Source of the DNA: Candidatus Sulfotelmatobacter sp.
Lineage (GTDB): Bacteria; Acidobacteriota; Terriglobia; Terriglobales; Acidobacteriaceae
Reading direction: 5' to 3'
DNA length: 64,000 nt
Assembly: GCA_030041475.1 (NCBI GenBank)
Contig: JASHNU010000089.1
Span: 47,756 to 111,755 of the forward strand
The position numbers and the translations under genes were made by a program. Below, piece by piece: positions 7,069-20,871 of the stretch; positions within the stretch are counted from its first letter, which is position 1, and every line of letters begins with the position of its first letter. The notes beneath the pieces are model-generated. The model worked only from the letters and a program-made list of their open reading frames with translations. It was not told where the DNA came from and ran no database searches.

Positions 7069-7218
7069 GGGTTGTTCTCCCAAATGATTTGCAAAAACGG
7101 CCTCAAGACGGTGCAGACACGGGCTGCGGCAATGTTGGGTTCGGGTTGAGCGTTGACGACGAAATGGCGTACTGAAACTTGATCCGGTATGAAAAGCGGA
7201 CCAGTGACCGACTCGGCG

Positions 7219-7247
7219 GTTTAACACGTAGAAATGAAGACTGTCAA
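7219..7247 (-). promoter_or_regulatory. candidate promoter for the porin set
   Basis: On the minus strand TTGACA (7247-7242) is followed after 17 bases by TTAAAC (7224-7219). The -35 is perfect; the -10 is weak. It would give a leader of about 140 bases before the porin start at 7068. Confidence 0.35.
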
Positions 7248-7543
7248 GAAAACTTTTCAATGAGCCGCTGCCGAACATTAATTCCGCGGCCAACGCGTAG
7301 TTTGGAGTTCGCCGAACAGTAAACATTCTCCGAGGCTTGCCCAGGGGTAAGTTCAATGCTCCAGCCGCGTGATCGGAACCTCCGATCAAACCAAGGGCGT
7401 ATACTTTCCTGTTAGGGCGGTCGGGAGGGCGTGCCAGCGCTCTCTGGATTTGGATTATCGTCTGCTTCTCAGCCCGCGTCATCATCTCACGGCGTGAATG
7501 AGGGCAATAAGGAGAACTAATCGAATCGATCAACAAAATTAAC

Positions 7544-7571
7544 TTGACTACACTTGCGGTGCCGGTACACT
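7544..7571 (+). promoter_or_regulatory. sigma-70-type promoter of the glyoxylate aminotransferase gene
   Basis: TTGACT (7544-7549), a 16-base spacer and TACACT (7566-7571), giving an expected transcription start near 7578 and an 80-base leader. The leader contains the CACGA-TC-TCGTG palindrome. The shared operator found upstream of the regulator and of oxlT is not present here. Confidence 0.55.
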
Positions 7572-7657
7572 GCCAGACTCTATGTCGCTTTCCTATTTGA
7601 GGTCACGATCTCGTGTAACCCTTGAGCTTTTCATCTTCTGACAGGAAATGAGGCTTT

Positions 7658-8815
7658 ATGAGTGCTATCTCACAACCTTCTGCGCGCGAGCTGTTCGCCC
7701 CGCTGAACCCCCCGCAGCGTTATCTTTTCGGCCCCGGACCCACGATGGTCGACCCACGCGTCTACCAGGCGCTCTCAAAACCGATCGTTGGACATCTGGA
7801 TCCGTACTTCATCGACATGATGCAGGATGTGCAAGAGCTGCTCAAGACGGCATTTGGCTTCAAGAGCGGCTCGACGCTGGTGATTTCTGGCACAGGCAGC
7901 GCAGGCATGGAAGCCAGCGTCGCTAACTTTGTCGAGCCGGGAGCAAAGTTCGCCGTGTTTGCCAACGGGTATTTCTCCGATCGCTTGACGGAAATGGCCC
8001 GGCGCAACGGCGCCAATGTGGTGCGATTCGAGAAGGCATGGGGAGAAACGTTCAGCGACGCCGAGGCGTCGGATTTCATTCGTCGCGAGAAACCGGCCGT
8101 GGTGGGCTATGTCCATGCCGAGACGTCGACGGGTGCGTTGCAGGAAGGACAGGCGATCTGCGCCGCGGCACATGATGCCGGGGCTCTGGTGATCGCCGAC
8201 TGCGTTACGTCGCTCGGAGGCCTCCCGGTCGAGTTCGATCGCACCGCCATCGACATCGCTTACAGTTGCACACAGAAGGGATTGAGTTGCCCGCCGGGTT
8301 TGTCGCCGATGGCGCTGTCGCCGCGAGCGATGGATTGGCTGCGCGCTCGCACCACCTCACCGCGGAGCTGGTATCTGGATCTCAAGCTGATTCACGATTA
8401 CTCCACCGTTTCGCACCGCTACCACCACACTGCTCCGATTTCGATGTTTTACGCGCTGCGCGAGGCGCTGCTCGTGATTGCCGAGGAGGGTATTGAAAAC
8501 CGTTGGGAGCGTCATCGCCGTTTCCACAGGTTTTTTGTGCGCGAGATCGAAGCCATGGGATTGCATATGCACGTTCCCGCGTCCCACCGCATTCCAACGT
8601 TGAACACGGTGCTGGTGCCAAGTGGCGTGGATGACGGCAAAGTGCGCAAACGGCTGCTGGAAGGTCCGGGCATCGAAATCGCCGGCGGATTTGGACCGCT
8701 GGCCGGCAAGGTCTTTCGTATCGGCGTCATGGGGCCGCTGGCTACGGAAGAGAATCTGAAATTCTTCTTGGCCGAGTTTAAGAAGGCCTTGAAGGCGGAG
8801 GGCTACTCGATCTAG
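7658..8815 (+). CDS. class V aminotransferase, alanine/serine-glyoxylate transaminase
   Basis: PLP enzyme (385 aa) that moves an amino group between alanine or serine and glyoxylate, making glycine. The N-terminus carries FGPGPTMVDPRVYQAL and VGHLDPYF, both typical of alanine-glyoxylate transaminases. PLP-binding residues are visible: D181 (IADCVTSLGG) and the Schiff-base lysine K207 in CTQKGLSCPPG. The C-terminus has PTLNTVLVPSGVDDGKVR and FRIGVMGPLA. Length is normal. It opens the oxalate island, 100 bp before the oxalyl-CoA synthetase gene. In that context it would consume glyoxylate produced by oxalyl-CoA reduction. Family assignment is firm; the preferred amino donor cannot be read from sequence. 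Confidence 0.88.
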   Translation: MSAISQPSARELFAPLNPPQRYLFGPGPTMVDPRVYQALSKPIVGHLDPYFIDMMQDVQELLKTAFGFKSGSTLVISGTGSAGMEASVANFVEPGAKFAVFANGYFSDRLTEMARRNGANVVRFEKAWGETFSDAEASDFIRREKPAVVGYVHAETSTGALQEGQAICAAAHDAGALVIADCVTSLGGLPVEFDRTAIDIAYSCTQKGLSCPPGLSPMALSPRAMDWLRARTTSPRSWYLDLKLIHDYSTVSHRYHHTAPISMFYALREALLVIAEEGIENRWERHRRFHRFFVREIEAMGLHMHVPASHRIPTLNTVLVPSGVDDGKVRKRLLEGPGIEIAGGFGPLAGKVFRIGVMGPLATEENLKFFLAEFKKALKAEGYSI

Positions 8816-8915
8816 TTTGCCCATTCGTCGTGGCTAAAGACGGGTGCGAAAAGCGCCGCTTGTATCGATCCGTCGCCGACATTGCGCCCAGGGTACCGGG
8901 CCGAGGACTGCTTCC

Positions 8916-10439
8916 ATGTCTACCAAACTCACCCTGAAATCCGTCACAACTCTGCTCGACGTTTTGCACTATGCAGATAGTCACGCCGCGATCGCTGTGC
9001 CTGAACTTGAAATCTTTGTCACCTACGATTCGTTGCGCGAGCAGGTCTTGGCGATGGCTGACGCCTTGGCCTCCGCCGGCATTCGCCGCGGAGACCGCGT
9101 GGCGATGGCACTGCCCAACGGACTGCCTGCCATCGTAAGTTTCCTGGCTGCATCGATTGCCGGAACTGCCGCGCCATTGAATCCGGCTTATCCGTACGAA
9201 GAGTTCCTGTTTTTCCTCCGCGACACGGAGGCGAAGTTGTTGCTGTCTCCGCCAGCCGGCGCGAATTTCGTGCGCAGCGCTGCGACGGACCTGAAAATTC
9301 CCGTCCTTGAGGTCGGCATGACCGACAAGGGCATGGCTCACCTCATCGATGCTCCCTCGGGAGCGAAAGCGGTTGAGCCAACTCCCGATGACATCGCCCT
9401 GGTGCTGCACACCAGTGGCAGCACCGGACGCCCGAAGCGCGTCCCGTTGCGTCATTTCAACCTGGCCGTGTCGGCCGCGAACATCGCCAATACCTATGCG
9501 CTTTCGGAGGACGATGTCTCGTTGTGCATCATGCCGCTGTTTCACATCCACGGCCTGATCGGATCCGCCATGTCCACGCTCCTCTCCGGCGGCGAACTCG
9601 TTGTCCCTACGAAATTCAACGCGCTGACCTTCTGGAAAACGGTGCGCGAGCATCACGTCACCTGGTATTCGGGTGTCCCGACGATGCATCAAGTGCTTTT
9701 GGCGCGCACGCACCACAAGCTGCCGGAAGCGGCAACGCTGCGTTTCATCCGTTCGTGCAGCGCGCCTCTGTCCGCTGAACTGATTCACAAAATTGAGGGC
9801 ATCTTCGGCGTGCCATTTGTCGAAGCATACGGAATGACCGAGGCCTCGCATCAAATGACTTCGAATCCGCTGCCTCCGCGGCATCGCAAGGCGGGGTCTG
9901 TGGGAGTCGGCACGGGCATTCGGATCACGGTCATGGACAAAGACGGCATTGAGCTGGGCATGAATCAGCGGGGAGAAATTGCCATTCAAGGAGCCAGCGT
10001 GTTTCGCGGATACGAGAACAATCCCGAGGCCAATGCGCGCGCGCTGACGCGAGGATGGTTTCGCACCGGCGACGAAGGATTTCTCGACGAGGACTGCTAC
10101 CTGCATCTGACCGGCCGCATTAAAGACATCATCATCCGCGGCGGAGAGAATGTCGCGCCGCATGAGGTCGACGAGATTTTGCTCAAGCATCCCGCGGTGG
10201 CGGCGGCCGTCACTTTCCCGTTTGCTCATCCCACACTGGGTGAAGAGATAGCTGCGGCCGTGGTGCTCCACGAGCCGCACGGCGCAACTGAGAAGGATCT
10301 TTTGAAGCATTGTCGCGAGTGCCTGGCGGAATATAAGTGTCCGAAGAAGATCCACCTGGTGACCAGCATTCCCACCACCGCCACCGGGAAGATTCGCCGC
10401 CGCGCTGTAGCGGCCGCTTTGCTGGATATCGACGCATGA
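8916..10439 (+). CDS. oxalate-CoA ligase (AAE3/Pcs60-type oxalyl-CoA synthetase)
   Basis: AMP-forming acyl-CoA synthetase (507 aa) that would make oxalyl-CoA from oxalate, ATP and CoA in the cytoplasm. Start 8916 has GAGG nine bases upstream; a 72-base longer frame lacks one. The core shows HTSGSTGRPKRVPLRH (ATP loop), MPLFHIHGLIG, RFIRSCSAPL, EAYGMTEASHQMTSNPLPP, WFRTGDEGFLDE, LTGRIKDIIIRGGENVAPHE and the catalytic lysine region TTATGKIRRR. The FHIHGLIG and MTEASHQMTSN blocks are those I recall for yeast Pcs60 and plant AAE3, the known oxalyl-CoA synthetases. The following gene overlaps it by 4 bases (ATGA), so the two products are made together. Substrate is inferred from motifs plus context; a different short acid is possible. 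Confidence 0.75.
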   Translation: MSTKLTLKSVTTLLDVLHYADSHAAIAVPELEIFVTYDSLREQVLAMADALASAGIRRGDRVAMALPNGLPAIVSFLAASIAGTAAPLNPAYPYEEFLFFLRDTEAKLLLSPPAGANFVRSAATDLKIPVLEVGMTDKGMAHLIDAPSGAKAVEPTPDDIALVLHTSGSTGRPKRVPLRHFNLAVSAANIANTYALSEDDVSLCIMPLFHIHGLIGSAMSTLLSGGELVVPTKFNALTFWKTVREHHVTWYSGVPTMHQVLLARTHHKLPEAATLRFIRSCSAPLSAELIHKIEGIFGVPFVEAYGMTEASHQMTSNPLPPRHRKAGSVGVGTGIRITVMDKDGIELGMNQRGEIAIQGASVFRGYENNPEANARALTRGWFRTGDEGFLDEDCYLHLTGRIKDIIIRGGENVAPHEVDEILLKHPAVAAAVTFPFAHPTLGEEIAAAVVLHEPHGATEKDLLKHCRECLAEYKCPKKIHLVTSIPTTATGKIRRRAVAAALLDIDA

Positions 10440-11431
10440 GGTTCCTGATTGCGGGCGCAGGGGCGATCGGCGCTTACATCGGCGCGCGCATGACCCATGC
10501 CGGATTCGACGTGACTCTGTTTGCGCGCGGGCCTCACCTGAAGGCCATGCAGGAGCGTGGCGTTGAGGTACGGAGTTCCGAAGGAAATTTCCAGGTACAG
10601 CCTCGCATTGTCGCATCGCTCGAAGAAGCTGGGCCGGTGGACGTGGTTTTTCTGGGCGTGAAGGCACACGGCCTTCCCCAGCTTGCGCCTCAGCTGAAGC
10701 CGGTACTGGGGCGCGACACGACGGTCGTCAGCACGCAGAACGGAATTCCCTGGTGGTACTTTCAGGGTTTCGGCGGCCCGTGGGATGGTCTGCGTCTCGA
10801 GCGCATCGATCCGGGCGGCGTGATTTCTAATGCGATCGAAGCCCGCCGCGTGGTCGGTTCGATCGTCTATTTCTCCACACAAATTGTCGCTCCAGGAGTA
10901 ATTCAACACACCGAGGGCAACCGCATTTCTCTCGGCGAACCGGACGGCGCGCGCTCCGAGCGTTGCCGCAAAATCGCGGAAGCGCTGGTGGCGTCAGGTC
11001 TGCGCTGTCCCGTCAGCGCCCGTCTCCGGCAGGAAATCTGGGTCAAGATTCTGGGCAACGCCTCGCTGAATCCCCTAAGCGCATTGACCCGCGCCACTCT
11101 TGCCCAAATGTTGCGCGACCCCGGAGTCGCCAGCGTGATTCGGAACATCATGCTCGAGGTGGAAGCAGTCTCACACAAACTGGGAATGGGACTGCCCGTT
11201 TCCATCGAGCAACGAATGGCCGGCGCTGAGAAAGTTGGCGAACACAAAACATCAATGCTCCAGGATCTCGAAGCCGGACGGCCCATGGAACTTGAAGCCC
11301 TCGTCGGTTCGGTCGTAGAGTTGGGGGAAAAAGTGGGCGTGGCGATGCCTCATACGACAACGGTCTACCATTGCGCGAAGTTGCTCGGACTGTCGAGCCT
11401 GGCTGCCACTCACGCTGCGAAACCGGCTTGA
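10436..11431 (+). CDS. PanE/ApbA-family reductase, probable oxalyl-CoA reductase (PanE2-like)
   Basis: NADPH-dependent 2-oxo-type reductase (331 aa). The Rossmann motif AGAGAIGAYIG begins at residue 6; the catalytic lysine region is EIWVKILGNASLNPLSALTR, and the C-terminal domain has SMLQDLEAGRPMELEAL. These are signatures of the ketopantoate reductase family. In Methylobacterium extorquens a member of this family (PanE2) reduces oxalyl-CoA to glyoxylate. Here the gene is translationally coupled to an oxalyl-CoA synthetase and follows a glyoxylate aminotransferase, with no pantothenate genes nearby, so oxalyl-CoA reductase is the better reading. Ketopantoate reductase remains the alternative. 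The insertion FQGFGGPWDGLRLERIDPGG near residue 105 is longer than in E. coli PanE. Confidence 0.65.
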   Translation: MRFLIAGAGAIGAYIGARMTHAGFDVTLFARGPHLKAMQERGVEVRSSEGNFQVQPRIVASLEEAGPVDVVFLGVKAHGLPQLAPQLKPVLGRDTTVVSTQNGIPWWYFQGFGGPWDGLRLERIDPGGVISNAIEARRVVGSIVYFSTQIVAPGVIQHTEGNRISLGEPDGARSERCRKIAEALVASGLRCPVSARLRQEIWVKILGNASLNPLSALTRATLAQMLRDPGVASVIRNIMLEVEAVSHKLGMGLPVSIEQRMAGAEKVGEHKTSMLQDLEAGRPMELEALVGSVVELGEKVGVAMPHTTTVYHCAKLLGLSSLAATHAAKPA

Positions 11432-11474
11432 ACCAACAGCCTTCTCAGGGCCGTCCCTCGCCGGCGCCGAGAAA

Positions 11475-11504
11475 TTGCCCGCCCCTTGACAACCGGAGTA
11501 TACT
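11475..11504 (+). promoter_or_regulatory. promoter of the FadR-family regulator, with overlapping palindrome
   Basis: TTGCCC (11475-11480), an 18-base spacer and TATACT (11499-11504). A perfect 14-base palindrome CGGAGTATACTCCG (11494-11507) covers the -10 box, and TTGACA occurs at 11486-11491 but without a matching -10. The placement suggests that a repressor could block polymerase at this site. Confidence 0.5.
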
Positions 11505-11508
11505 CCGT

Positions 11509-11532
11509 GTGGTCCACTTATCGGACCACTTT
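11509..11532 (+). promoter_or_regulatory. operator 1 for the FadR-type regulator (autoregulation)
   Basis: GTGGTCC, seven bases ACTTATC, GGACCAC, then TTT: a perfect 7+7 inverted repeat beginning five bases after the -10 box. A nearly identical element (20 of 24 bases) lies downstream of the oxlT promoter at 19328-19351. TGGTC/GACCA half-sites are typical of FadR-subfamily GntR proteins, although the spacing here is wider than in E. coli FadR sites. The position at the transcription start fits repression of the regulator's own gene. Confidence 0.65.
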
Positions 11533-11542
11533 GGGGTTTCCC

Positions 11543-12256
11543 ATGTCTTCAGCTCTCAATTCCAACTTCGAGATCATCCGCCGCAATAAAGTCTACGAAG
11601 ACGTCGCACGGCAGATCGAGCGCCTGATTCTCAAGAAACTGCATCCCGGCGACAAACTCCCTTCCGAACGCGAGCTCGCTGAAACTCTCTCCGTGAGCCG
11701 CAGTTCGATTCGCGACGCCATTCGCAGCTTGGAACTGATGGGCATGGTGGAACCGCGGCAGGGCGCGGGCACGATCGTTCGCGAGATCACTGCCAACTCC
11801 GTAGCCAATCCACTGACCAATGCCCTAAAGCGCAAAAAGGAACTGATGAGCGAACTGCTCGATTTCCGCCGCATCCTCGAGCCGCCGCTGGCCGCGCGCG
11901 CCGCCACGCACGCTTCGGCCGAAGAGATTGCGGAGATGGAGGACATCCTCAACCGGCAAGAGACGAAACTGCGCAAGGGTGAAAGCACAATTCCCGAAGA
12001 TTCCGAGTTTCACTATGCCGTCGCCATGGCATCGGGCAACAGCGTTGTGCTCAAGGTGCTCGACATTCTGATGGATCTGCTGCGGGAGACGCGCGAACGC
12101 AGCCTGCAGGTTGAGGGGCGCCCGCAAAAGTCGATTGCCGGCCATCGTCGTATCCTGGCCGCGATCAAGCGCCATGACACGGAGGGTGCAAAAGCCGCCA
12201 TGCGCCGGCATATTGAGGACGTCGAAGAGATTGTTCTGCACGAAGTGCATTATTGA
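11543..12256 (+). CDS. GntR/FadR-family transcriptional regulator (FCD domain)
   Basis: DNA-binding regulator of 237 aa. Start 11543 (MSSALNSN) is used; the frame extends to 11486 but the operator and promoter lie in that extension. The N-terminal winged helix shows YEDVARQIERLILKKLHPGD, KLPSERELAETLSVSRSSIR and EPRQGAGTIV. The C-terminal FCD domain shows ELLDFRRILEPPLAARAA, EFHYAVAMASGN and the metal-ligand type GHRRIL plus RHIEDVEE. FCD domains bind small organic acids. The gene stands between the assimilation and oxidation branches of the oxalate island, so oxalate, glyoxylate or oxalyl-CoA is the likely effector. It probably represses its own gene and oxlT through the shared operators. 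Confidence 0.85.
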   Translation: MSSALNSNFEIIRRNKVYEDVARQIERLILKKLHPGDKLPSERELAETLSVSRSSIRDAIRSLELMGMVEPRQGAGTIVREITANSVANPLTNALKRKKELMSELLDFRRILEPPLAARAATHASAEEIAEMEDILNRQETKLRKGESTIPEDSEFHYAVAMASGNSVVLKVLDILMDLLRETRERSLQVEGRPQKSIAGHRRILAAIKRHDTEGAKAAMRRHIEDVEEIVLHEVHY

Positions 12257-12280
12257 ATTTGATCGAATATGAGTTGCTTG

Positions 12281-12314
12281 CGTAAACGATCGCTTCTGTG
12301 GGCGATCCTTTACG
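12281..12314. repeat. 13-bp inverted repeat between regulator and oxidoreductase operon
   Basis: CGTAAACGATCGC, eight-base loop TTCTGTGG, GCGATCCTTTACG: 12 of 13 pairs match. It starts 25 bases after the regulator stop. There is no T-tract, so either a factor-dependent terminator for the regulator or an operator/leader structure of the downstream operon is possible. A second weaker stem (CGTGAGGC / GCCTCGCG) lies at 12409-12430. Confidence 0.5.
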
Positions 12315-12507
12315 AATAGAACTACGGGGAACGTGGCCGCTCCGGGAAGTGCTGCCGCAAGCAGGTCTGGGGATATCCGAAGTGACCGAATTCGAAAACG
12401 AGATTTCTCGTGAGGCCGCGACGCCTCGCGCTGAGAACTGGACTGCGGCGGGAACATCCGATTGCAATTCAGTTTCAGAGACATCCTGAATCTGGACGAG
12501 GTTGAAC

Positions 12508-13155
12508 ATGAGCTACACAGAACTTACGGTTTGGACGCGCGGCATCATCATGGACAAGGAAGGCCGCGACATTGTCAATTCCGTCTCCGCATCGGCTCGC
12601 CTGGAAGGCAAGTACGCGCAGGCGATGGAAAACTACGTGGACAATCCCGATCGCACGAACGCGCCTACGCGCAAGTACTGCCGCGTGAGCGACCGGGTGC
12701 TCGAGAACGAACTCACCTACGAAAACGAGCACCCGAACATCGTCGTGCTGGTGGAAGACACGATGGTCAAAGGCTGGGATTACATGCGCGGTATGCCTCC
12801 CGGCGGAACGCTAATCATCAATACGCACTATTCGCCCGACTACATGCTTCGCTTCGTGCCTGGGGTCGAGCGGCTGGCACAACTGGTCTGTGTGGACGCG
12901 GCTCACTTGGCGCACCACAAGTGGTTGTATTACCGGCTGGGCGAATTGGGTCTCGACCGCCTTTCAACCGAGGGCGCGGCCGAGCGCAGCAAACTGATCG
13001 CTCCGGACATCGCTGCTCCGCTGATCGCTGCGCTCGTCAAATCCACGGGCATCGTCAAGATGGAGACGATCCTGCCCATGATCGCCAACAAGAACGCATT
13101 TGAAATGGCGTTGAGCGAAATGAAGATCATGCAATTCAACCCAGTGGCTGTGTAG
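12508..13155 (+). CDS. 2-oxoacid (oxalate) oxidoreductase gamma subunit
   Basis: Protein of 215 aa corresponding to the gamma (domain III) subunit of the pyruvate/2-oxoacid:acceptor oxidoreductase superfamily. The start at 12508 has GAGG six bases upstream; a TTG six bases earlier is less likely. It begins YTELTVWTRGIIMDKEGRDI and has LVEDTMVKGWDYMRGMPPGG, the pattern of a gamma-domain strand-helix core, but lacks the usual GxGGQG loop near the N-terminus. In pyruvate enzymes this domain takes part in CoA binding; oxalate oxidoreductase needs no CoA, so the loss would make sense. Identity rests strongly on the operon: it is followed by delta, alpha and beta subunits at short spacing. Confidence 0.75.
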   Translation: MSYTELTVWTRGIIMDKEGRDIVNSVSASARLEGKYAQAMENYVDNPDRTNAPTRKYCRVSDRVLENELTYENEHPNIVVLVEDTMVKGWDYMRGMPPGGTLIINTHYSPDYMLRFVPGVERLAQLVCVDAAHLAHHKWLYYRLGELGLDRLSTEGAAERSKLIAPDIAAPLIAALVKSTGIVKMETILPMIANKNAFEMALSEMKIMQFNPVAV

Positions 13156-13165
13156 GAAGGAACTC

Positions 13166-14998
13166 ATGTCGACAAAGGGCACAAAAATTCCTGATTGGCT
13201 TACCGTACCGTTCGCGGGTATCACGCCTGCGCCTTCGCAGGACAAGGGACAGAACCTGTTTCCCACCGGCAACTGGCGCGCGATCCGGCCTGTTTACCGC
13301 GACAAGTTGCCACCCTGCAACAATGCCTGCGGCACCAACGAAAAAATCCAGGGATATCTCGATCTGGTGAAGCGCGGCAAGTATCTCGACGCCTATGCAC
13401 TTATCAAGGAAGACATGCCCTTCCCTTCCGTGACCGGACGCGTGTGCTACCACCCGTGCGAGCAGGCCTGCAATCGCGGCAAGTACGATGAAGCCATTTC
13501 CATTCGCGCAGTCGAGCGCTTCCTCGGCGATCTGGGACAGGCGCTGAAGCATGATGTAGTGAAGCCGGGAAAACCGAACGGCAAGAAAGTCGCCGTGATC
13601 GGCTCCGGGCCCGCAGGCCACAGCGCCGCTTATCAGCTGGCGCGCATGGGTTACAAGGTAACGATTCTCGAAAAATCTCCGAAGCCCGGTGGGCTGAACC
13701 GCGGCGGCATTCCCGTCTGGGTTCTTCCTCCACACGTGCTCGATCGCGAAATCGAGCGCCTCGTCGAACTCGGCATCACACTCAAAACCAACACCGAAGT
13801 TGGCAAAGACGTCAGCTGGGACGATCTGAAGAAAAACTACGACGCTTGCGTGCTGGCCGTTGGCCTGACGGAGCCGAACAGCGTGCGCGCCGAAGGTGAG
13901 AACAAAGAAGGCGTGCTCTACGGACTTCCCTTCCTGCGCGACATCGGCATGGGGACATCGAAGGTGAAGCTGGGGCCCCGCGTCGCAGTGATTGGCGGCG
14001 GCAATACGGCCATCGACTGCGCCCGCGAAGCGCTGCGGCAAGGTGCAGTCGAAGTCACTATGATCACGGTCGAAGCGAACACGCAGGAAATGCCAGCCTC
14101 GCCGGAAGATCTTCACGACATGTTCGAGGAGGGCGTCGACCTGTGGCACGGACGCGCGATGACCGCGGTTCTGGGCAACGGCAAGGTCGAATCGCTGCAA
14201 CTGCATCCGGCGCGCTTCTCCGGCGCCATTAATGCATCGCCGATCAACATTGATCGCAATGCGCCGGCAGAAAAATTTGCCGTCGACAACGTGATCATCG
14301 CCGTGGGGCAACATGCTTCGCTGAACTGGCTGCCGCCGGAATTCAAGAACGAGCGCGGAACTATCAAGATCGATCGCTTCGGCCGCCTCGGCGATACGAA
14401 TTTCTTCGCCGCCGGCGACATCGCACAGTTCGGTTCGGGCCAGCCGCTCATGGTCGTCAATGCAGTCGGCGACGGCAAGCGCGTAGCCTTCAACCTCGAC
14501 AAAGCATTGCGGGGTGAGCCGCTGCAGCCGCGCACGATCGCCATCGACGTCATCATGGACCTGAACCGCATGAACATGACGTATTTCCCGCACTTCCCGC
14601 GCGTGCACCAGGGCATGCTGAACCCGATCACGCGTAAGAAGACGCAGGACGAAGTCATCCAACCGTTCACGGAAGAGCAGGCCGTCGAAGAGGCGGCGCG
14701 CTGCTTCAGCTGCGGCACCTGCAACGCCTGCGACAACTGTTACCTGGTCTGTCCAGAGCCGTGCATCACTCGGCCAGAGCGCTCGAACGGCCTGTACAAG
14801 ATCATCGTCGACTACTGCAAGGGATGCCGCGTGTGCATCGAGGAGTGTCCGACCGGATGCCTCGAAGGCGTGCCCGAACTCGACTTCGACACCGGTGTGG
14901 TGCGCATGGATACTGCCTTTGCCATCAGCCCCGGACTGCACGGACGGCAGGCTCAGGAACTCGTGAATCTGGCGAGCCGCCCTGCGAAAAACATCTAG
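13166..14998 (+). CDS. fused GltD-type NADPH:flavin oxidoreductase and 2-oxoacid oxidoreductase delta (ferredoxin) subunit
   Basis: Fusion protein of 610 aa. Residues 45-130 hold an iron-sulphur domain like that of glutamate synthase small subunits (C51, C55, C94, C98, C102). Next comes an FAD-binding site, VIGSGPAGHSAAYQLARMG (about 145-163), and an NADPH-binding site, VIGGGNTAIDC (about 275-285). The C-terminus from about 505 is ferredoxin-like: cysteines 513, 516, 519, 522, 525, 529, 533 and a second set 551, 554, 557, 561, 565 (CKGCRVCIEECPTGC), enough for two 4Fe-4S clusters. The layout would pass electrons from the TPP centre through the clusters to FAD and NADP+, or run from NADPH to ferredoxin. 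AGGAAGGAACTC precedes the ATG. The gene lies between gamma and alpha. Confidence 0.82.
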   Translation: MSTKGTKIPDWLTVPFAGITPAPSQDKGQNLFPTGNWRAIRPVYRDKLPPCNNACGTNEKIQGYLDLVKRGKYLDAYALIKEDMPFPSVTGRVCYHPCEQACNRGKYDEAISIRAVERFLGDLGQALKHDVVKPGKPNGKKVAVIGSGPAGHSAAYQLARMGYKVTILEKSPKPGGLNRGGIPVWVLPPHVLDREIERLVELGITLKTNTEVGKDVSWDDLKKNYDACVLAVGLTEPNSVRAEGENKEGVLYGLPFLRDIGMGTSKVKLGPRVAVIGGGNTAIDCAREALRQGAVEVTMITVEANTQEMPASPEDLHDMFEEGVDLWHGRAMTAVLGNGKVESLQLHPARFSGAINASPINIDRNAPAEKFAVDNVIIAVGQHASLNWLPPEFKNERGTIKIDRFGRLGDTNFFAAGDIAQFGSGQPLMVVNAVGDGKRVAFNLDKALRGEPLQPRTIAIDVIMDLNRMNMTYFPHFPRVHQGMLNPITRKKTQDEVIQPFTEEQAVEEAARCFSCGTCNACDNCYLVCPEPCITRPERSNGLYKIIVDYCKGCRVCIEECPTGCLEGVPELDFDTGVVRMDTAFAISPGLHGRQAQELVNLASRPAKNI

Positions 14999-15019
14999 CT
15001 AAAGAGAATTGGAGTGAAC

Positions 15020-16228
15020 ATGCCAACGGTTACTGCCACAAAAAAGAAAACGGTGCGGATTAACGGCTGCGTTGCGTCGGCACAGGCGGCCAAGTACGCC
15101 GATGTGGACGTCATCGCCGCCTATCCCATCCGGCCTTATACCGCGACCATGATGGCGCTGGCGCAGATGGTCGCCAATGGTGAACTCGACGCCGAGTACA
15201 TCGTGGCCGACAGCGAGCACTCGCAACTGAGCATCGCGCACGGCGCCTCGTCAAGCGGCGCCCGAGTCTTCACCGGCAGCTCAGGCGTGGGCGTGCAGTT
15301 TGCTTACGAACTGTATTCGCCAATTTCCGGCAGCCGCATGCCCGTCCAGATGATGATTGCCGACCGGACGCTCGACCCTCCCGGCGATTTCGGCTCCGAG
15401 CATACCGACGCGCTTTCCACGCGGGACATGGGCTGGCTCATGGGCTGGGCCTGTGACGCGCAGGAAGCATTCGACAATCATCTCATTGCCTATCGCATCG
15501 GCGAGGACCGGCGCGTGCTTTTACCCCAGATGGTCTGCCAGGACGGTTTCTTCGTGTCGCACATCACCAGCGACGTAGAACTGCCCGACTCGAGCCAGGT
15601 ACGAGAATTCTTGCCGCCCTACAAACATCCTTATCCGCTTGATCCGCGGCATCCGGTATCGCACGGCCCGCAGATCATGCCGGAGCAGGGTCCGCCGCTG
15701 CAACTTGAGCGGGCGCGCGCCATGGAAGGTTCAATGGCTGTAATCGAAGAAGTGCATAAGGAATTCGGCGAGATTTTCGGACGCCATTATGATCCGTGGC
15801 TCGAAGAGTACAAGACCGACGATGCCGAAGTCGTTTTCTTCCTGCAGGGCGGGCACGGAGTCACGGCGCGGTTCGCGATCCAGCACATGCGCGAAAAAGG
15901 ATTGAAGGTCGGCATGGTGCGGCTGCGTACCATCCGTCCGTATCCCACCGACCGGGTATGTGAAGTTCTGAGCAAGTTCAAAGTGGTCGGCGTGATCGAA
16001 ACCAACATGGGACTTGGCAGCCCCAGCAGCGGAGGCGTCCTCTACGCCGACGCCTGCGCCGCACTTTACGAGGCTCCAGAACGGCCGCTCGTGATCTCGT
16101 TCATGGCCGGCATGGGTGGAGAAGCGATCGTGCTGAAAGAGTTTTACTGGATGACCGAAAAGATGATTCAGGCCCAGAAGCGTGGAAAAATCGAAAAGCG
16201 CACGCATTGGGTGGGATTCGAAGAATAG
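15020..16228 (+). CDS. oxalate oxidoreductase alpha subunit (probable)
   Basis: Protein of 402 aa, alpha subunit of a TPP-dependent 2-oxoacid oxidoreductase (domains I and II). Start 15020 has GGAG five bases upstream. Where pyruvate enzymes read YPITPSS, this one has YPIRPY (R38). The second loop reads ADRTLDPPGDFGSEHTD, with R116, D119 and F124. From memory, Moorella oxalate oxidoreductase uses alpha R31 and R109 to hold oxalate and D112/F117 in a switch loop; the spacings (78, 3 and 5) are identical here. The C-terminal half has the transketolase-like domain II ending in KVVGVIETNMGLGSPSSGG. Predicted reaction: oxalate to two CO2 plus two low-potential electrons. A pyruvate or other 2-oxoacid enzyme is less likely. 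Confidence 0.8.
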   Translation: MPTVTATKKKTVRINGCVASAQAAKYADVDVIAAYPIRPYTATMMALAQMVANGELDAEYIVADSEHSQLSIAHGASSSGARVFTGSSGVGVQFAYELYSPISGSRMPVQMMIADRTLDPPGDFGSEHTDALSTRDMGWLMGWACDAQEAFDNHLIAYRIGEDRRVLLPQMVCQDGFFVSHITSDVELPDSSQVREFLPPYKHPYPLDPRHPVSHGPQIMPEQGPPLQLERARAMEGSMAVIEEVHKEFGEIFGRHYDPWLEEYKTDDAEVVFFLQGGHGVTARFAIQHMREKGLKVGMVRLRTIRPYPTDRVCEVLSKFKVVGVIETNMGLGSPSSGGVLYADACAALYEAPERPLVISFMAGMGGEAIVLKEFYWMTEKMIQAQKRGKIEKRTHWVGFEE

Positions 16229-16245
16229 GAACAGGAGAAACGGAT

Positions 16246-17310
16246 ATGGCAAGCATCGAAGTTCAGCGGCAGGTACTGCCCATTCTCGCCAACCCTAATC
16301 AGGGCGCGCGCTTCTACAATCCTGAGCTGCCTTCGTCGGAGCCGTTCGTCCCAGGTCACCGCACGTGCGCAGGCTGCGGGCCTTCCATCCAGTACCGCAT
16401 GACGAGCAAAGCTGCGGGCGACAACACGATCTTGGTCGGACCGACCGGGTGTATGTACGTGGCCAACAGTTCGTATCTGTGCACGCCGTACAACGTACCC
16501 TGGGCGCACACGCAGATTGGCAGCGCCGGGAGTTTTACCGCGGGCGTCGCTGCGGCGTATGAAGCCATGATCCGCAAAGGCAAATGGAGGGGGCATTATC
16601 CAAATATTATTTGCGAAGCCGGCGACGGCAGCGCCTCCGATATCGGTTTGGCCTCGATCTCCGGCGCACTCTATCGCAACCACGACTGCTTGATCATCTG
16701 CTACGACAATGAGCAGTACGCCAATACGGGCATTCAGGCGTCGTCGCGCACGCCCTACGGCGGAATGACCACGTTTTCGCCGCCGGGTCCGGAAGTTCCG
16801 GAAGGCAAGAAGCTGTTTCCGAAAGATCTCGCTCGCATGATGGCGGCGGGACATCCTCACTGCTACGTGGCAACGGCGAGCGTGGGCTACCCTATTGATC
16901 TTATGAACAAAGTCCGCAAGGGCCTGAACCACCGCGGCGCCGCATATCTCATGGTCTACACGCCCTGCCAGAAGGGATTCGTTTACGAGACGCCGCGCTC
17001 CATCGATCTCGGCCGCGTGGTGGTCGAGTGCGGTCTGTATCCGATCTGGGAGTGGAATCCGGAGAAGCGCGAGTTCGACTACAGCTTCCGCCCGCAGAAC
17101 ATTCGTCCGGTCTCGGAGTACTTGAAGCTGCAGGGACGATTTGGCCATCTGCACGCCGAACATATCGCCACCATGCAGAAGTTCGCCAACGAGCAATGGA
17201 AAATGATGGGCGTCGAGCTGCCGGAAGGGTTGATCCAGGCAGCCGATCCGAAGAACCAGGTCAACATGGCAGCGGCGGCGGAAGCCGAAGCAATTGCGGA
17301 GACCGTATGA
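16246..17310 (+). CDS. oxalate oxidoreductase beta subunit (TPP and 4Fe-4S binding, probable)
   Basis: Protein of 354 aa. The start at 16246 has AGGAGAAACGG in front; a frame from 16207 overlaps the alpha stop. It carries the TPP-binding motif GDGSASDIG (from residue 125) ending in DNEQYANTG, and the four cysteines for the proximal cluster: C41 and C44 (CAGC), C69 (GPTGC) and C240 (YTPCQKGF), as in other family beta subunits. Seventeen bases separate it from alpha, and its stop overlaps the start of the next small gene (ATGA). It forms the catalytic heart with alpha. Subunit identity is certain by motif; the oxalate specificity comes from the alpha subunit. Confidence 0.85.
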   Translation: MASIEVQRQVLPILANPNQGARFYNPELPSSEPFVPGHRTCAGCGPSIQYRMTSKAAGDNTILVGPTGCMYVANSSYLCTPYNVPWAHTQIGSAGSFTAGVAAAYEAMIRKGKWRGHYPNIICEAGDGSASDIGLASISGALYRNHDCLIICYDNEQYANTGIQASSRTPYGGMTTFSPPGPEVPEGKKLFPKDLARMMAAGHPHCYVATASVGYPIDLMNKVRKGLNHRGAAYLMVYTPCQKGFVYETPRSIDLGRVVVECGLYPIWEWNPEKREFDYSFRPQNIRPVSEYLKLQGRFGHLHAEHIATMQKFANEQWKMMGVELPEGLIQAADPKNQVNMAAAAEAEAIAETV

Positions 17311-17690
17311 GCGCACAATCAAATGCTCCAGCCACACCGGCGGAAGCGCAGGAAAGTTACATTGTTGCCGAAGGCAAAAAGCGCGGCGCGACCCGCGACG
17401 TGCGGCCGGAAGCGGCGTTCGACAAGTACTACACCGTGCTGCGCGTCCATGCCGGCGACGGCATTCTCACCGATAACTGGCATACCAATGAAGTCCTGAG
17501 CCACACGCGCAACAACTTCGAGGGCTACACCTTCGTGATGCGAACGCTCGAAGCCTGGGGCGTGATGATCGAGAACGACCATCGCGGCTACTACACGGCC
17601 GGCGGGCGCGTGTGGGTCCTCGATCTGGAGCGGTGTGAAGGCAAGAAGCCGCGGCTGCCGGTGGCGGGCGCCGGCGCCAGCAAAGGATAA
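17307..17690 (+). CDS. small protein coupled to the oxidoreductase operon, unknown function
   Basis: Protein of 127 aa whose ATG overlaps the stop codon of the beta-subunit gene, so the two are translationally coupled. No known domain is recognised. The N-terminal 40 residues are polar and Ala/Glu-rich; the rest (YYTVLRVHAGDGILTDNWHT, then NFEGYTFVMRTLEAWGVMIE and GGRVWVLDLERC) looks like a compact alpha/beta domain. It has one cysteine only, so it is unlikely to bind an Fe-S cluster by itself. The tight coupling suggests an accessory or regulatory subunit, or an assembly factor, for the oxalate enzyme. Confidence 0.6.
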   Translation: MSAQSNAPATPAEAQESYIVAEGKKRGATRDVRPEAAFDKYYTVLRVHAGDGILTDNWHTNEVLSHTRNNFEGYTFVMRTLEAWGVMIENDHRGYYTAGGRVWVLDLERCEGKKPRLPVAGAGASKG

Positions 17691-17698
17691 GCGCAGGA

Positions 17699-18064
17699 GT
17701 GGCTCGCATCCTGCTCATTGACGACACGCCGGAGATTGCCGAACTCCTGACCTTCGCATTGCGCGACCTTGGCCACGCGGTCTATGCCTCTGGCTACACA
17801 ACCACCGTCAACGACCTGATTGCGGAGCAGCGCGCCGATGCTCTGGTGCTCGACTGTTCCGCCTATGAGATGAGCGAAGCGCTATTCGACATGGTGCGCG
17901 GGGAAACGAAGCACACCCCGCTTCCCATCGTGATCATCTCCGACACGCCGGAAGAAGCTGATGAGAGCCTCGCTGCCCGCAACGCCGAAAAGGTCTTGCT
18001 GATCCCGAAGCCCTTTACGGCATCGCAGGTCGCGCGGGCGATCGACCAACTACTGGCAGCGTGA
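17699..18064 (+). CDS. single-domain response regulator (receiver)
   Basis: Receiver-domain protein of 121 aa starting at GTG 17699, with AAAGGA ten bases upstream. The phosphorylation machinery is complete: acidic pair D8/D9 (LLIDDTPE), phospho-acceptor D52 (LVLDCSAYEM), S81 (VIISDT) and K104 (IPKPF). No output domain follows. It lies eight bases after the small protein of the oxidoreductase operon and is likely co-transcribed. No histidine kinase is adjacent; a partner may lie elsewhere or in the chemosensory cluster 5 kb downstream. Its target is unknown. Confidence 0.75.
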   Translation: MARILLIDDTPEIAELLTFALRDLGHAVYASGYTTTVNDLIAEQRADALVLDCSAYEMSEALFDMVRGETKHTPLPIVIISDTPEEADESLAARNAEKVLLIPKPFTASQVARAIDQLLAA

Positions 18065-18113
18065 GCCGAACTCAGGCCTCGCCCTGGAGCCTTTCTGACG
18101 TGGAGTCCTGTTT

Positions 18114-18431
18114 ATGTGGAGTATGGATGATTGGGAGTACCTGGAGCGCGAAGTCGTCACCGACCCGAAGGGCCGGAAGTGGACGATCGCGCTGATGGAC
18201 GTGCTCGGCCAGAAGGGCGATCCCGACCGGCCCGACGCTTTGCTTGAGCTGCAATATTCTTCCGGCCGTTACTTCACTCTGATCTACGGCTCCGGTGGCG
18301 GATTGCAGTGGGAACGCGGCTACGGCTTGCTGCCGGACGCGACGCGGGCATACGGCGAGTTGATGCTGTCCGTCATCCGGGGGAAACTTGATCCGTCGCA
18401 GCCTGTCTTCCGCGCGGATCTGGAAGGTTGA
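18114..18431 (+). CDS. hypothetical protein at the end of the oxidoreductase operon
   Basis: Protein of 105 aa; start at 18114 with GTGGAG nine bases upstream, or at the nearby ATG 18123. It is acidic and aromatic-rich (MDDWEYLEREVVTDPKGRKW, ELQYSSGRYFTLIYGSGGGL), all in one globular-looking domain. No family is recognised. It follows the receiver gene by 49 bases on the same strand. Coding use looks real because frame, length and GC at third positions match its neighbours. Confidence 0.5.
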   Translation: MWSMDDWEYLEREVVTDPKGRKWTIALMDVLGQKGDPDRPDALLELQYSSGRYFTLIYGSGGGLQWERGYGLLPDATRAYGELMLSVIRGKLDPSQPVFRADLEG

Positions 18432-18461
18432 TCTCGCTTCCCTGCTGTTATCGCCCAGCTT

Positions 18462-19238
18462 CTATCGGCCCGGATCGAGATCTCTCAGAATCACGTTCAG
18501 CACTTGCCCAGCCAGTCGCGCGTCGCGCTCTGAAACCCCTGTGCCAGTCTCGCTCTCGTCTCGATAGGTTCTGGCGACCGACGGCAGGCGAGCGCAGCCG
18601 TTGCGAATCAGCCCTGCTCTCTCTGCGACCGCAATCCGCGTATCGAACGACCATTCGCTGATGTTTCCCGTGGGAGCACCCGAAGCCATGAGTGCGGCCA
18701 GCCCTTTTTTCTCCAGCGCGTCGGTGATGATGGCTTCGAGGATCCCGCAAGACGTGCGCAACGCCAGGTCAAATAGCCCTTCCTCCGAGGCGCGACGGCT
18801 CTCGCGATAGGCCTGTTCGAGCACCGGACGGAGCTCAGAGTTGTGCACGAACTCGAAGCGCCGTGGTGCCGGAGGCTCTGCGGTCGTGGAAAGAACCGGG
18901 ACTGCGTCCTTGCGCGTCAGCGAAGCGACTGCCTGTTCCAGTACTCCGAGCAGTCGCGTGACTATTTCCTCCGGCGCGACTCCTTCGACCACTCCACCGT
19001 CGCCAGTTCGGACCAGGAAGGCCTGGCTGAAGGACCGTGCCAGCCAGCGGGCTTTGCTACCCCCCGATAATCGATTGACGATGAGGCCGACTTCCTGCTG
19101 CCATACACGGGTCGTCGTCACGGAGAACGCGTCTGAGGGATCGGCCGCCAGCAGGCCGCGAAGCTCTCGTCCGCGCCGAATCAGGCTTTCGAGCTGTGTG
19201 AGGTGGGTCTCGATTTGAGCTTGCAGAGTCTGTTCCAT
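18462..19238 (-). CDS. hypothetical helical protein
   Basis: Protein of 258 aa on the minus strand, facing the oxidoreductase operon and ending 30 bases from its last gene. The start at 19238 (MEQTLQAQIETH) is a guess; a GTG at 19265 is also in frame, and neither has a clear ribosome-binding site. The N-terminus is helical (LTQLESLIRRGRELRGLL). The C-terminal half (AYRESRRASEEGLFDLALRT then ISEWSFDTRIAVAERAGLI) is reminiscent of DUF4145-like helical domains, but this is weak. Function unknown. Confidence 0.5.
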   Translation of the reverse strand: MEQTLQAQIETHLTQLESLIRRGRELRGLLAADPSDAFSVTTTRVWQQEVGLIVNRLSGGSKARWLARSFSQAFLVRTGDGGVVEGVAPEEIVTRLLGVLEQAVASLTRKDAVPVLSTTAEPPAPRRFEFVHNSELRPVLEQAYRESRRASEEGLFDLALRTSCGILEAIITDALEKKGLAALMASGAPTGNISEWSFDTRIAVAERAGLIRNGCARLPSVARTYRDESETGTGVSERDARLAGQVLNVILRDLDPGR

Positions 19239-19287
19239 CGGTGTATCGCGTGAGTCGGCGGGCACTGGAATTGGCCAGAATTCGTTC

Positions 19288-19316
19288 TTGACACCCTAGC
19301 GCGAGGGTGATAACTT
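19288..19316 (+). promoter_or_regulatory. sigma-70-type promoter of oxlT
   Basis: TTGACA (19288-19293), a 17-base spacer, TAACTT (19311-19316), the best promoter in the window. The spacer contains the near-palindrome CCCTAGCGCGAGGG. A transcription start near 19323 is expected, giving a leader of about 150 bases. Confidence 0.65.
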
Positions 19317-19327
19317 CTCTCCCCGAA

Positions 19328-19351
19328 GTGGTTCACTCATCAGACCAGTTT
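19328..19351 (+). promoter_or_regulatory. operator 2, shared with the FadR-type regulator gene
   Basis: GTGGTTCACTC, ATCAGACCAG and TTT: identical at 20 of 24 positions to the site at 11509-11532 and again just downstream of a promoter. The inverted half-sites TGGT and ACCA are kept. This links oxlT expression to the FadR-type regulator 8 kb upstream. Confidence 0.65.
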
Positions 19352-19474
19352 AGCATACGCGCTGTGCTGGCCCGGTCTTCTGGCGCAACGCCGGAGTGAA
19401 CCGCAACACGTGGGGACTGGCGTTCCGCCAGTGCATTGTCAAAGAATCCACCACCCAGTTGTGGAGGGCAATTG

Positions 19475-20821
19475 ATGGCGACGCAAGCTTCCTCCCTGAT
19501 TCATCCATCCCGCATTGTCAATCGTTGGGCCCAGTTGGTGGCCGGCATCGTCGCCATGATGGCAATTGCCAACTTGCAATATGCCTGGACCCTGTTCACG
19601 AAGCCTATACAAGCCCAGCTGCACGTTTCCCTGGTCGCTGTGCAGTGGACTTTTACTTTATTCGTCGCCCTTGAAACTTGGCTTGTGCCTTTTGAAGGGT
19701 TCCTGGTTGACAAGATCGGGCCTCGATTCATGTTGGGCATCGGCGCGGTCATGGTTGGATTGGGCTGGATCGGCTCCGGCCGGGCTGAGACCATAAACAG
19801 CCTCTATTTTTGGTACGGCGTGGGCGGCGTCGGTGCCGGTGTAGTCTACGGCGGGGCGATTGGGAATGCGTTGAAATGGTTCCCTGACCATCGCGGACTG
19901 TGCGTCGGCCTGACCGCCGGAGCGTTCGGCATAGGCACGGCTACGACGATTGCTCCCGTCGCTTCCATGCTGAAGATCTCGGGCTACCAGCACACGTTCA
20001 TATTCTGGGGAACCGTCCAGGGCATCGTGGTCTTAGCCGCTGCCCTGTTCATGGCCAAGCCACCCGAGGGCTGGACGCCGCAGGGTTGGAAGGAAAAGGA
20101 GGCTTTGATCAAAGCCCGCATTCGGACCTCCGCCAAGGACCTGACGCCCTTCGAGATGCTATGCCAGCCGTCTTTCTATGTCATCTATGTGATGATGACA
20201 ATGTTAGCTTTCGGTGGCTTGGTGGTTACGGCACAACTCAACCCCATGGCTTCCTCGTACCATGTGGATAACATCGTCGTGGGACTCGGCATGACCGCAT
20301 TGGTGATGGCCATTACGGTCGACCGCTTGCTGAACGGTTTGACCCGGCCATTCTGGGGATGGGTCTCCGACCACATTGGACGGGAGAATGCTATCTTCGC
20401 CTCTTTTATTCTGGAGGCAGTCGCAGTGTTTGCCCTGCTTCAGTTGATCAGCCATCCTGTCTGGTTCGTTGCGTTGTCGGGCCTTTGTTTCTTCGCGTGG
20501 GGCAATATTTTTTCTCTCTTCCCCTCTGTCACCGGTGACCTGTATGGAAGGAAATGGGCGACCACCAACTATGGAGTGGTCTATACCGCCAAAGGAGTAG
20601 CTGCGGCCTTTGCCGGACCCGGCGCCGCCTGGTTGTTTGCTAAGACCGGTTCCTGGACGAAGGTGTTCTGGGCCATGATCGTTTGCGATTTGATCGCTGC
20701 CTTCATGGCATTGCTATGGCTGAAGCCGCTGGCAGCCAAAATGGTAAAGGAGTCAGAAAGCGCGTCTGCGCCAGCCGTCGACCTGACGCCGACTCCCATC
20801 AAGGCCCGTGGCGTAGCATAA
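19475..20821 (+). CDS. oxlT: oxalate transporter, OxlT-type (MFS, oxalate:formate antiporter family)
   Basis: Twelve-helix MFS carrier (448 aa). Start 19475 has GGAGGG eight bases upstream. Much of it can be aligned by eye with Oxalobacter OxlT: NLQYAWTLFTKPI, VSLVAVQWTFTLF, VDKIGPR, GVGAGVVYGGAIGNALKWFP, NGLTRPFWGWVSDHIGR and TTNYGVVYTAKGVAA. The two positive residues that bind oxalate in OxlT (R272, K355) are both present, as R291 and K373. The family can exchange oxalate for formate; since this island produces CO2 or glyoxylate rather than formate, it may act as a symporter or exchange another anion. It lies 8 kb from the ligase but is tied to the cluster by the shared operator. Confidence 0.87.
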   Translation: MATQASSLIHPSRIVNRWAQLVAGIVAMMAIANLQYAWTLFTKPIQAQLHVSLVAVQWTFTLFVALETWLVPFEGFLVDKIGPRFMLGIGAVMVGLGWIGSGRAETINSLYFWYGVGGVGAGVVYGGAIGNALKWFPDHRGLCVGLTAGAFGIGTATTIAPVASMLKISGYQHTFIFWGTVQGIVVLAAALFMAKPPEGWTPQGWKEKEALIKARIRTSAKDLTPFEMLCQPSFYVIYVMMTMLAFGGLVVTAQLNPMASSYHVDNIVVGLGMTALVMAITVDRLLNGLTRPFWGWVSDHIGRENAIFASFILEAVAVFALLQLISHPVWFVALSGLCFFAWGNIFSLFPSVTGDLYGRKWATTNYGVVYTAKGVAAAFAGPGAAWLFAKTGSWTKVFWAMIVCDLIAAFMALLWLKPLAAKMVKESESASAPAVDLTPTPIKARGVA

Positions 20822-20843
20822 GAATTCGGACGGAGGTATGAAA

Positions 20844-20871
20844 GCCTCCCTTAAGTCAGGGAGCCTTTTTT
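20844..20871 (+). terminator. rho-independent terminator after oxlT
   Basis: GCCTCCCT, short loop TAAGTC, AGGGAGCC followed directly by TTTTTT. Stem of six uninterrupted pairs plus one after a mismatch. It begins 23 bases after the oxlT stop and closes the oxalate island on the plus strand. Confidence 0.75.

Follow-up and report, generated by a model that had tools for sequence, protein, structure and literature searches.

Classical oxalotrophy relies on frc, oxc and oxlT, and Methylobacterium extorquens uses frc and oxc for oxalate oxidation. PanE2 of M. extorquens is a PanE-family enzyme that converts oxalyl-coenzyme A (oxalyl-CoA) to glyoxylate, and the AAE3/Pcs60 enzymes of plants and yeast feed oxalyl-CoA decarboxylation. 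A further enzyme, oxalate oxidoreductase (OOR), is found in the acetogen Moorella thermoacetica. Among the 2-oxoacid oxidoreductases, the NADH-dependent phenylglyoxylate dehydrogenase (PadEFGHI) is the known enzyme with a separate gamma subunit and a flavoprotein linked to nicotinamide adenine dinucleotide (NAD). Here we describe an island of genes in Candidatus Sulfotelmatobacter sp. (Acidobacteriota) that holds relatives of several of these systems. It lies in a stretch of 64,000 nucleotides (the window; part of contig C61, JASHNU010000089.1) of an assembly of 4.63 Mb that is 99.6% complete, and extends from an aminotransferase gene (position 7658) to a terminator-like stem (20863). The island is real and coherent, and oxalate oxidation by an OOR is well supported on sequence grounds.

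The oxidoreductase is encoded by four plus-strand genes, oorG (12508–13155), oorF (13166–14998), oorA (15020–16228) and oorB (16246–17310), which are separated by about 10 to 21 bases. An earlier note on this DNA had described a four-gene 2-oxoacid oxidoreductase here; the four genes are present, and what it had missed is that the fourth member, OorF, is a flavoprotein with sites for flavin adenine dinucleotide (FAD) and NAD(P) and with a ferredoxin domain. NCBIfam models for OOR matched OorG (E 2e-51), OorA (E 1e-174) and OorB (E 9e-133). The alpha subunit, OorA, scored above the curated cut-off of its model (NF045791, 581.2 versus 500 bits), and is 57% identical to the alpha subunit of Moorella OOR (5c4i_A; further structures 5exd and 5exe) as against 34% to a pyruvate enzyme. 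The gamma-domain protein OorG (5c4i_B, E 2.7e-44) and the beta subunit OorB, which has thiamine diphosphate and [4Fe-4S] sites (5c4i_C, E 1.8e-115), are likewise homologous to their Moorella counterparts.

For comparison between genomes we used 52 loci found in named genomes, 47 non-actinobacterial (one of them, L043, labelled Myxococcales) and five actinobacterial, many of them cut by contig ends. The nearest were in two Candidatus Sulfotelmatobacter metagenome-assembled genomes, with 98% identity over OorA. At Moorella positions 28, 31, 109, 112, 116 and 117 the window protein reads YRRDDF, as does Moorella OOR, whereas the pyruvate enzyme reads YTRSNI and keeps two of the six residues checked. 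We take positions 28, 112 and 117 to be substrate-site residues. All six residues (Tyr28, Arg31, Arg109, Asp112, Asp116 and Phe117) were identical in 13 of 13 OorA rows, from the window and 12 loci. Of the locus segments aligned, 50 of 56 carry both YPIRPYT and DR(T/A)LDPPGDF, the latter motif being DRTLDPPGDFG in the window; L042, one of the other six, has YAIRPYT. PMC5020499 names residues 31, 109 and 116 of Moorella OOR, connects Arg31 of the YPIRP motif and Asp116 with the entry of oxalate into the active site, and states that the enzyme needs no CoA. By sequence, the window enzyme is therefore assigned as an OOR, with the oxalate-type alpha subunit that had been proposed for it. An ordinary pyruvate oxidoreductase was rejected on the OorA site residues and the difference in identity.

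OorG corresponds to residues 12–210 of the Moorella OOR delta subunit and the C-terminal tail of OorF to residues 259–315, the delta model being matched in OorF by the tail only (E 2e-13, 50.5 bits). The two proteins together span both parts of the Moorella subunit, which is split here, with a GltD-like protein fused before the 2[4Fe-4S] ferredoxin domain in a single gene. Upstream of the tail, OorF has a Fer4_20 domain and FAD and NAD(P) sites (Pfam), and its nearest relatives in the PDB are parts of a molybdopterin oxidoreductase, a formate-dehydrogenase-like subunit, Nfn-type proteins and glutamate synthase small chains. In OorF the second nucleotide-binding strand is followed by Thr-Val-Glu, at a place where the five PDB relatives aligned have Arg-Arg; all 47 rows that cover this site (three being repeat retrievals of a locus already included) show the Glu. 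In 8 of 8 rows, four of them from Actinomycetota, neither the FAD motif nor the GGGNTA nucleotide motif nor the Fe-S cysteines varied. Since OorF has a conserved Glu where solved relatives carry Arg-Arg, NAD+, rather than NADP+, is the predicted electron acceptor of the window OOR. The comparison with the Moorella enzyme made in the earlier note implies a ferredoxin-linked OOR, whereas the subunits found here predict NAD. A flavoprotein with FAD and NAD(P) sites inside the OOR operon gives an architecture like that of PadEFGHI, from which the window differs in that OorA matches the PadG model with 253 bits as against 581 for OOR alpha, and in that the ferredoxin and flavoprotein parts form one gene.

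Alternatively, the oxidoreductase could act on oxalate with ferredoxin, as in Moorella, with OorF serving as a ferredoxin:NAD(P) transhydrogenase or a bifurcating partner. The Moorella enzyme works at low potential and is of the ferredoxin type, its 2[4Fe-4S] domain recurs in OorF, and NfnA/NfnL-type proteins are among the OorF relatives. However, in Acidobacteriota and Actinomycetota loci alike, a single gene of the OOR operon encodes the flavoprotein and the ferredoxin domain as a fusion, and an OOR-like module with its own fused ferredoxin exists separately in several relatives. We therefore regard a ferredoxin-linked enzyme as unlikely.

The OxlT-type carrier (19475–20821, plus strand, with TTG at 19436 as a possible alternative start) exceeds the TIGR04259 cut-off (469 versus 335 bits). 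Aligned with 8hpj, it keeps the oxalate-binding pair Arg272 and Lys355, in agreement with the carrier assignment made earlier, together with Gln34, Tyr35, Asn268 and Trp324, and differs at Tyr150, Tyr328 and Trp352. An OxlT (threshold at least 60%) was present in 19 of the 28 non-actinobacterial loci with 5 kb of downstream sequence.

The island thus shares its OxlT-type carrier with classical oxalotrophy, but neither a CoA-transferase III nor Oxc was found in the same genome. The genome gave no CoA_transf_3 match, its best match to the Oxc model reached 181 versus 739 bits, and the Oxc and Gcl models matched two acetolactate synthases only, one of whose genes adjoins ilvC. The possibility that Oxc or Gcl was hidden among the thiamine diphosphate enzymes was rejected, both matches being acetolactate synthases by their own model (760 and 624 versus a cut-off of 538 bits). 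Because there is no CoA-transferase III gene and the Oxc matches are acetolactate synthases, frc and oxc look absent, and the genome-wide search that had been proposed earlier found neither. Here OOR holds the place that frc and oxc have in M. extorquens, and the window also differs from AAE3/Pcs60 systems in the lack of a detectable Oxc. When the Oxc model was run against 298 genomes of the order, it exceeded its cut-off in two (G213 and G223), neither of them among the 16 genomes with OOR alpha. In these two genomes (loci L056 and L055) an AAE3-like ligase, 40–42% identical, lies close to oxc, where perhaps a ligase-plus-Oxc route operates.

The second predicted branch begins with an AAE3-type AMP/acyl-CoA ligase (8916–10439, plus strand), a predicted oxalyl-CoA synthetase. 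Its best solved relatives are the oxalate-CoA ligases 6qjz, 5ie0 and 8aff (420, 409 and 358 bits), with the next kind of enzyme at 231 bits, which agrees with the earlier assignment to the AAE3/Pcs60 type. A single literature search for the oxalate-contacting residues of such ligases, by listings, brought up no paper that gives them. The ATG of the following gene, encoding a PanE/ApbA-family reductase (10436–11431, plus strand), overlaps the ligase stop by four bases (ATGA), an arrangement that the earlier note had called coupled. The reductase matches NF005089 (417 bits), a subfamily named 2-dehydropantoate 2-reductase, and is predicted to be a PanE2-like oxalyl-CoA reductase. Upstream of the ligase lies a class-V aminotransferase gene (7658–8815, plus strand; Pfam Aminotran_5), whose product is a predicted glyoxylate:amino acid aminotransferase; the best NCBIfam match is BhcA aspartate-glyoxylate aminotransferase, at 189 bits far below the cut-off of 650. 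An aminotransferase gene also precedes the ligase in L002, L007, L008, L016, L058–L060, L070 and L075. PMC12927642 describes an assimilation route consisting of an oxalyl-CoA reductase that forms glyoxylate and a serine-glyoxylate transaminase.

Among the 298 genomes of the order, OOR alpha (at least 85% identity) was found in 16, the window type of PanE (at least 63%) in 34 and of ligase (at least 57%) in 33; three PanE genomes (39–47%) and five ligase genomes (42–48%) were dropped as too distant. The ligase was present in 33 of the 34 PanE genomes, and all 33 ligase genomes have PanE. PanE occurred in 13 of the 16 OOR genomes versus 21 of 282 others (Fisher 2e-11), and, when a second OOR-like class (alpha 42–48% identical; assigned by identity in 24 genomes, with 14 of its loci fetched and read) was included, in 26 of 32 genomes with either enzyme versus 8 of 266 without (Fisher 8e-25); these counts ignore kinship, use identity thresholds set by eye after the gap had been seen, and place G213 among genomes without OOR in spite of an oorG that is cut by the end of its contig. 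Relatives of PanE outside the phylum were found in 59 plasmid records, of which six were examined. Methylobacterium bullatum, whose homologue stood in for M. extorquens PanE2 in the comparison, has an OxlT (630 bits, over the cut-off), an FAH-family gene, PanE (46% identity) and a ligase in a row within 5 kb. In Azospirillum ramasamyi no more than 12 kb holds OxlT, PanE and gcl, and no ligase match was obtained. On a Rhodobacteraceae plasmid (SC52) an AMP ligase, 43% identical to that of the window, overlaps PanE, with an ATP-binding cassette (ABC) importer nearby and no OxlT match. In Skermanella PanE adjoins a GntR gene, with no ligase or OxlT match, and the unannotated Nonomuraea and Cupriavidus metallidurans plasmid records gave no ligase or OxlT match either.

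Locally, the gene set is not fixed. The 47 non-actinobacterial loci contained oorG in 38 cases, oorF in 45, oorA in 47 and oorB in 44, and, with many contigs cut, the ligase in 9, PanE in 11 and the aminotransferase in 4; the exact combination noted in the window is thus not generally kept together. Where the sequence reaches 7.2 kb or more beyond oorG on its upstream side (20 loci), ligase and PanE were both present in 7; in one of these 7, L030, they are downstream and divergent. The four-gene set oorGFAB also occurs in Actinomycetota, where L039–L042 have it together with a different small protein. L039 and L040 adjoin membrane genes that look TctA-like by eye (no NCBIfam match at E<=1e-40), and L041 has a major facilitator superfamily (MFS) carrier with a sub-cut-off match to an NCBIfam lactate transporter (149.6 versus 320 bits); the other Actinomycetota carriers tried received no NCBIfam name at E<=1e-40. 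Plasmid records searched for OorA held no close relative (four records, best 35%).

In other loci the place of oorGFAB is taken by a three-gene OOR-like module, module B, consisting of a gamma subunit fused to ferredoxin, an alpha and a beta subunit. In L058, L059, L060, L061 and L069 it lies between the regulator and OxlT, with ligase and PanE upstream; L070 begins in the same way as the L058-type loci and its contig ends inside module B. In L064–L067 the fetched stretch shows the regulator, module B and OxlT but not the pair, L065 having a 27% ligase-family match only, and L001 and L007 carry both OOR and module B. The genome of the window itself contains a second OOR-like operon on C96 (L057), with GntR, a gamma-ferredoxin fusion, an alpha subunit with YPIRP, a beta subunit and an OxlT-like carrier 41% identical to that of the window. 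The module B alpha subunit is 41–44% identical to Moorella OOR and keeps Arg31, Arg109, Asp112 and Phe117, with Ala at 116. In a tree of alpha subunits Moorella groups with OorA (93/88) and module B is separate (100/96); as long branches were flagged, we relied on identities and site residues rather than on the tree. The exchange of OOR and module B in the same place suggests that they share the same or a kindred substrate.

This exchange bears on the question of whether the island serves oxalate at all. The substrate of the oxidoreductase could instead be a small acid other than oxalate (glyoxylate, mesoxalate or pyruvate), with the ligase–PanE pair acting on a different acyl-CoA. Module B occupies the same place with Ala instead of Asp116, OorB and OorG are below their NCBIfam cut-offs, and the SC52 pair is accompanied by an ABC importer and not by OxlT. 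On the other hand, OorA agrees with Moorella OOR at each of the six oxalate-site residues checked, the OxlT carrier has the Arg/Lys pair and, among solved structures, oxalyl-CoA synthetases are the closest to the ligase; we consider a different acid improbable. Still less probable is that the PanE-like protein is an ordinary ketopantoate reductase for pantothenate, as its family and subfamily name would allow, standing beside the ligase incidentally: its start codon overlaps the ligase stop, it occurs in just 34 of 298 genomes and in 33 of these with the ligase, the genome has a second PanE-family gene elsewhere, and in Methylobacterium and Azospirillum a homologue is found close to OxlT. A chance gathering of unrelated genes was rejected in view of recurrence in the loci of relatives and of the co-occurrence counts.

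We therefore favour, as the probable reading, an oxalate-catabolic island with two branches, NAD-linked oxidation by OOR and glyoxylate formation by the ligase and a PanE2-type enzyme. From the gene content, family assignments and site residues observed, and the absence of frc, oxc and gcl matches, we infer the substrates, the NAD acceptor, the direction and the regulation. Oxalate would be imported by the OxlT-type carrier, and free oxalate oxidized by OOR to two CO2 with transfer of electrons to NAD+. OorA and OorB would bind thiamine diphosphate and oxalate. From there electrons would move by way of the cluster in OorB into OorF, first to its 2[4Fe-4S] domain, then to its N-terminal clusters and its FAD, and finally to NAD+. 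The resulting NADH could feed a respiratory chain, the genome having four COX1-family genes, a difference from Moorella. In the other branch, the ATP-dependent ligase would make oxalyl-CoA, which the PanE2-type enzyme would reduce to glyoxylate. The aminotransferase would convert glyoxylate to glycine, and glycine could yield serine via the glycine cleavage system, whose P protein is encoded in the genome. Malate synthase, also encoded, would offer an alternative exit for glyoxylate; no glyoxylate carboligase was found in the genome. The glyoxylate branch and the NAD linkage are good predictions.

Several observations weigh against this reading. OorB (442 versus 590 bits, NF045792) and OorG (175 versus 230 bits, NF045790, the delta model) are below their cut-offs, although OOR is still the best family for both, and a single site, in a single subunit, underlies the predicted NAD preference. 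OOR is an oxygen-sensitive enzyme known from an anaerobe, and its use under air is therefore uncertain. G213 has a true Oxc and a piece of oorG at a contig end, so that the same genome can harbour both OOR and Oxc. The window type of PanE was not found in 3 of the 16 OOR genomes and the ligase–PanE pair is away from OOR in many named loci, so that the two branches are not obligatorily linked. The limits of the co-occurrence counts given above belong here as well.

Every gene listed in the earlier note (aminotransferase, ligase, reductase, regulator, four OOR genes and carrier) was found, and the terminator reported after the carrier corresponds to a terminator-like stem followed by a T-run at 20846–20863 (plus strand). 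The list was incomplete, since three small plus-strand genes lie between OOR and the carrier, and the island is not, as stated, all on one strand. The first small gene (17307–17690), whose ATG overlaps the oorB stop, encodes a conserved protein (124–127 amino acids), a possible accessory subunit, present in 41 of 47 non-actinobacterial and 0 of 5 actinobacterial loci. It has 1396 homologues at E<=1e-5 and no Pfam or NCBIfam family, and the predicted fold of the 124-residue protein (mean predicted local distance difference test score 75) gave no PDB match at E<=0.001. The second (17699–18064; PF00072) encodes a stand-alone response-regulator receiver domain, present in 39 of the 47 loci, and the third (18114–18431) a conserved protein of 105 amino acids, present in 38 of the 47. 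On the minus strand, 18462–19265 encodes a conserved protein of 267 amino acids, found in 35 of the 52 loci (25 downstream of oorA and 10 upstream), which sits between the 105-residue gene and OxlT in 22 of 22 loci showing those two in that order. Neither of the last two proteins had a Pfam match.

Between the reductase and oorG lie a gene for a FadR-type GntR/FCD regulator (11543–12256, plus strand), which probably senses an acid of the pathway, and the remnant of a CDC48-type AAA+ gene (12257–12505, plus strand), of which just the two ends are left, about 2.06 kb being missing relative to L002. The complete gene in L002 scores 769 bits with TIGR01243, below the cut-off of 803, and a gene of this type stands directly before oorG in 24 of the 31 non-actinobacterial loci with 2.5 kb there. 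This steady position suggests a role in assembling or renewing OOR. A search of the window's own genome for a CDC48-type gene at E<=1e-40 gave at best a 46% match to one AAA domain. Promoter-like sites were seen at 7544, before the first gene of the island, and at 11475–11504, upstream of the regulator. The window has 11 terminator-like sites versus a shuffled mean of 12.4 and 7 promoter-like sites versus 3.7, so that these calls rest on position and not on number. The island is flanked on the minus strand by a gene for a phosphate-selective-porin-type protein (5410–7536) and one for a second MFS carrier (20903–22216); a second MFS gene after OxlT is also present in several relatives.

Oxalate from plants and fungi is a large pool of carbon in soil. 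A literature search covering titles and abstract openings, with most subscription journals outside it, gave no report of OOR in Acidobacteriota among the papers listed, and a review mentions the Moorella OOR (PMC11045627). An oxalotroph survey based on frc, oxc, oxdC and oxlT named Acidobacteria among possible new oxalotrophs; the word "oxidoreductase" is absent from its available text (PMC10192776). A count based on oxc would miss this organism and 296 of the 298 genomes of its order. The wider reading, to which we give about even weight, is that the island represents a widespread, undescribed oxalotrophy of soil Acidobacteriota and Actinomycetota, in which an NAD-linked and possibly oxygen-compatible OOR, exchangeable with module B, replaces frc and oxc in the energy-yielding branch and is paired in Acidobacteriota with ATP-dependent reduction of oxalate, as oxalyl-CoA, to glyoxylate. 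Through the assimilation branch, one more phylum would be added to the range of PanE2-type oxalyl-CoA reduction. If OorGFAB oxidizes oxalate with NAD+, soil phyla possess a respiratory version of an enzyme known from an anaerobe, and such surveys would need oorA as a further marker. If the wider reading is true, oxalate would be both a respiratory fuel and a carbon source for these bacteria, used without a formyl-CoA or formate step.

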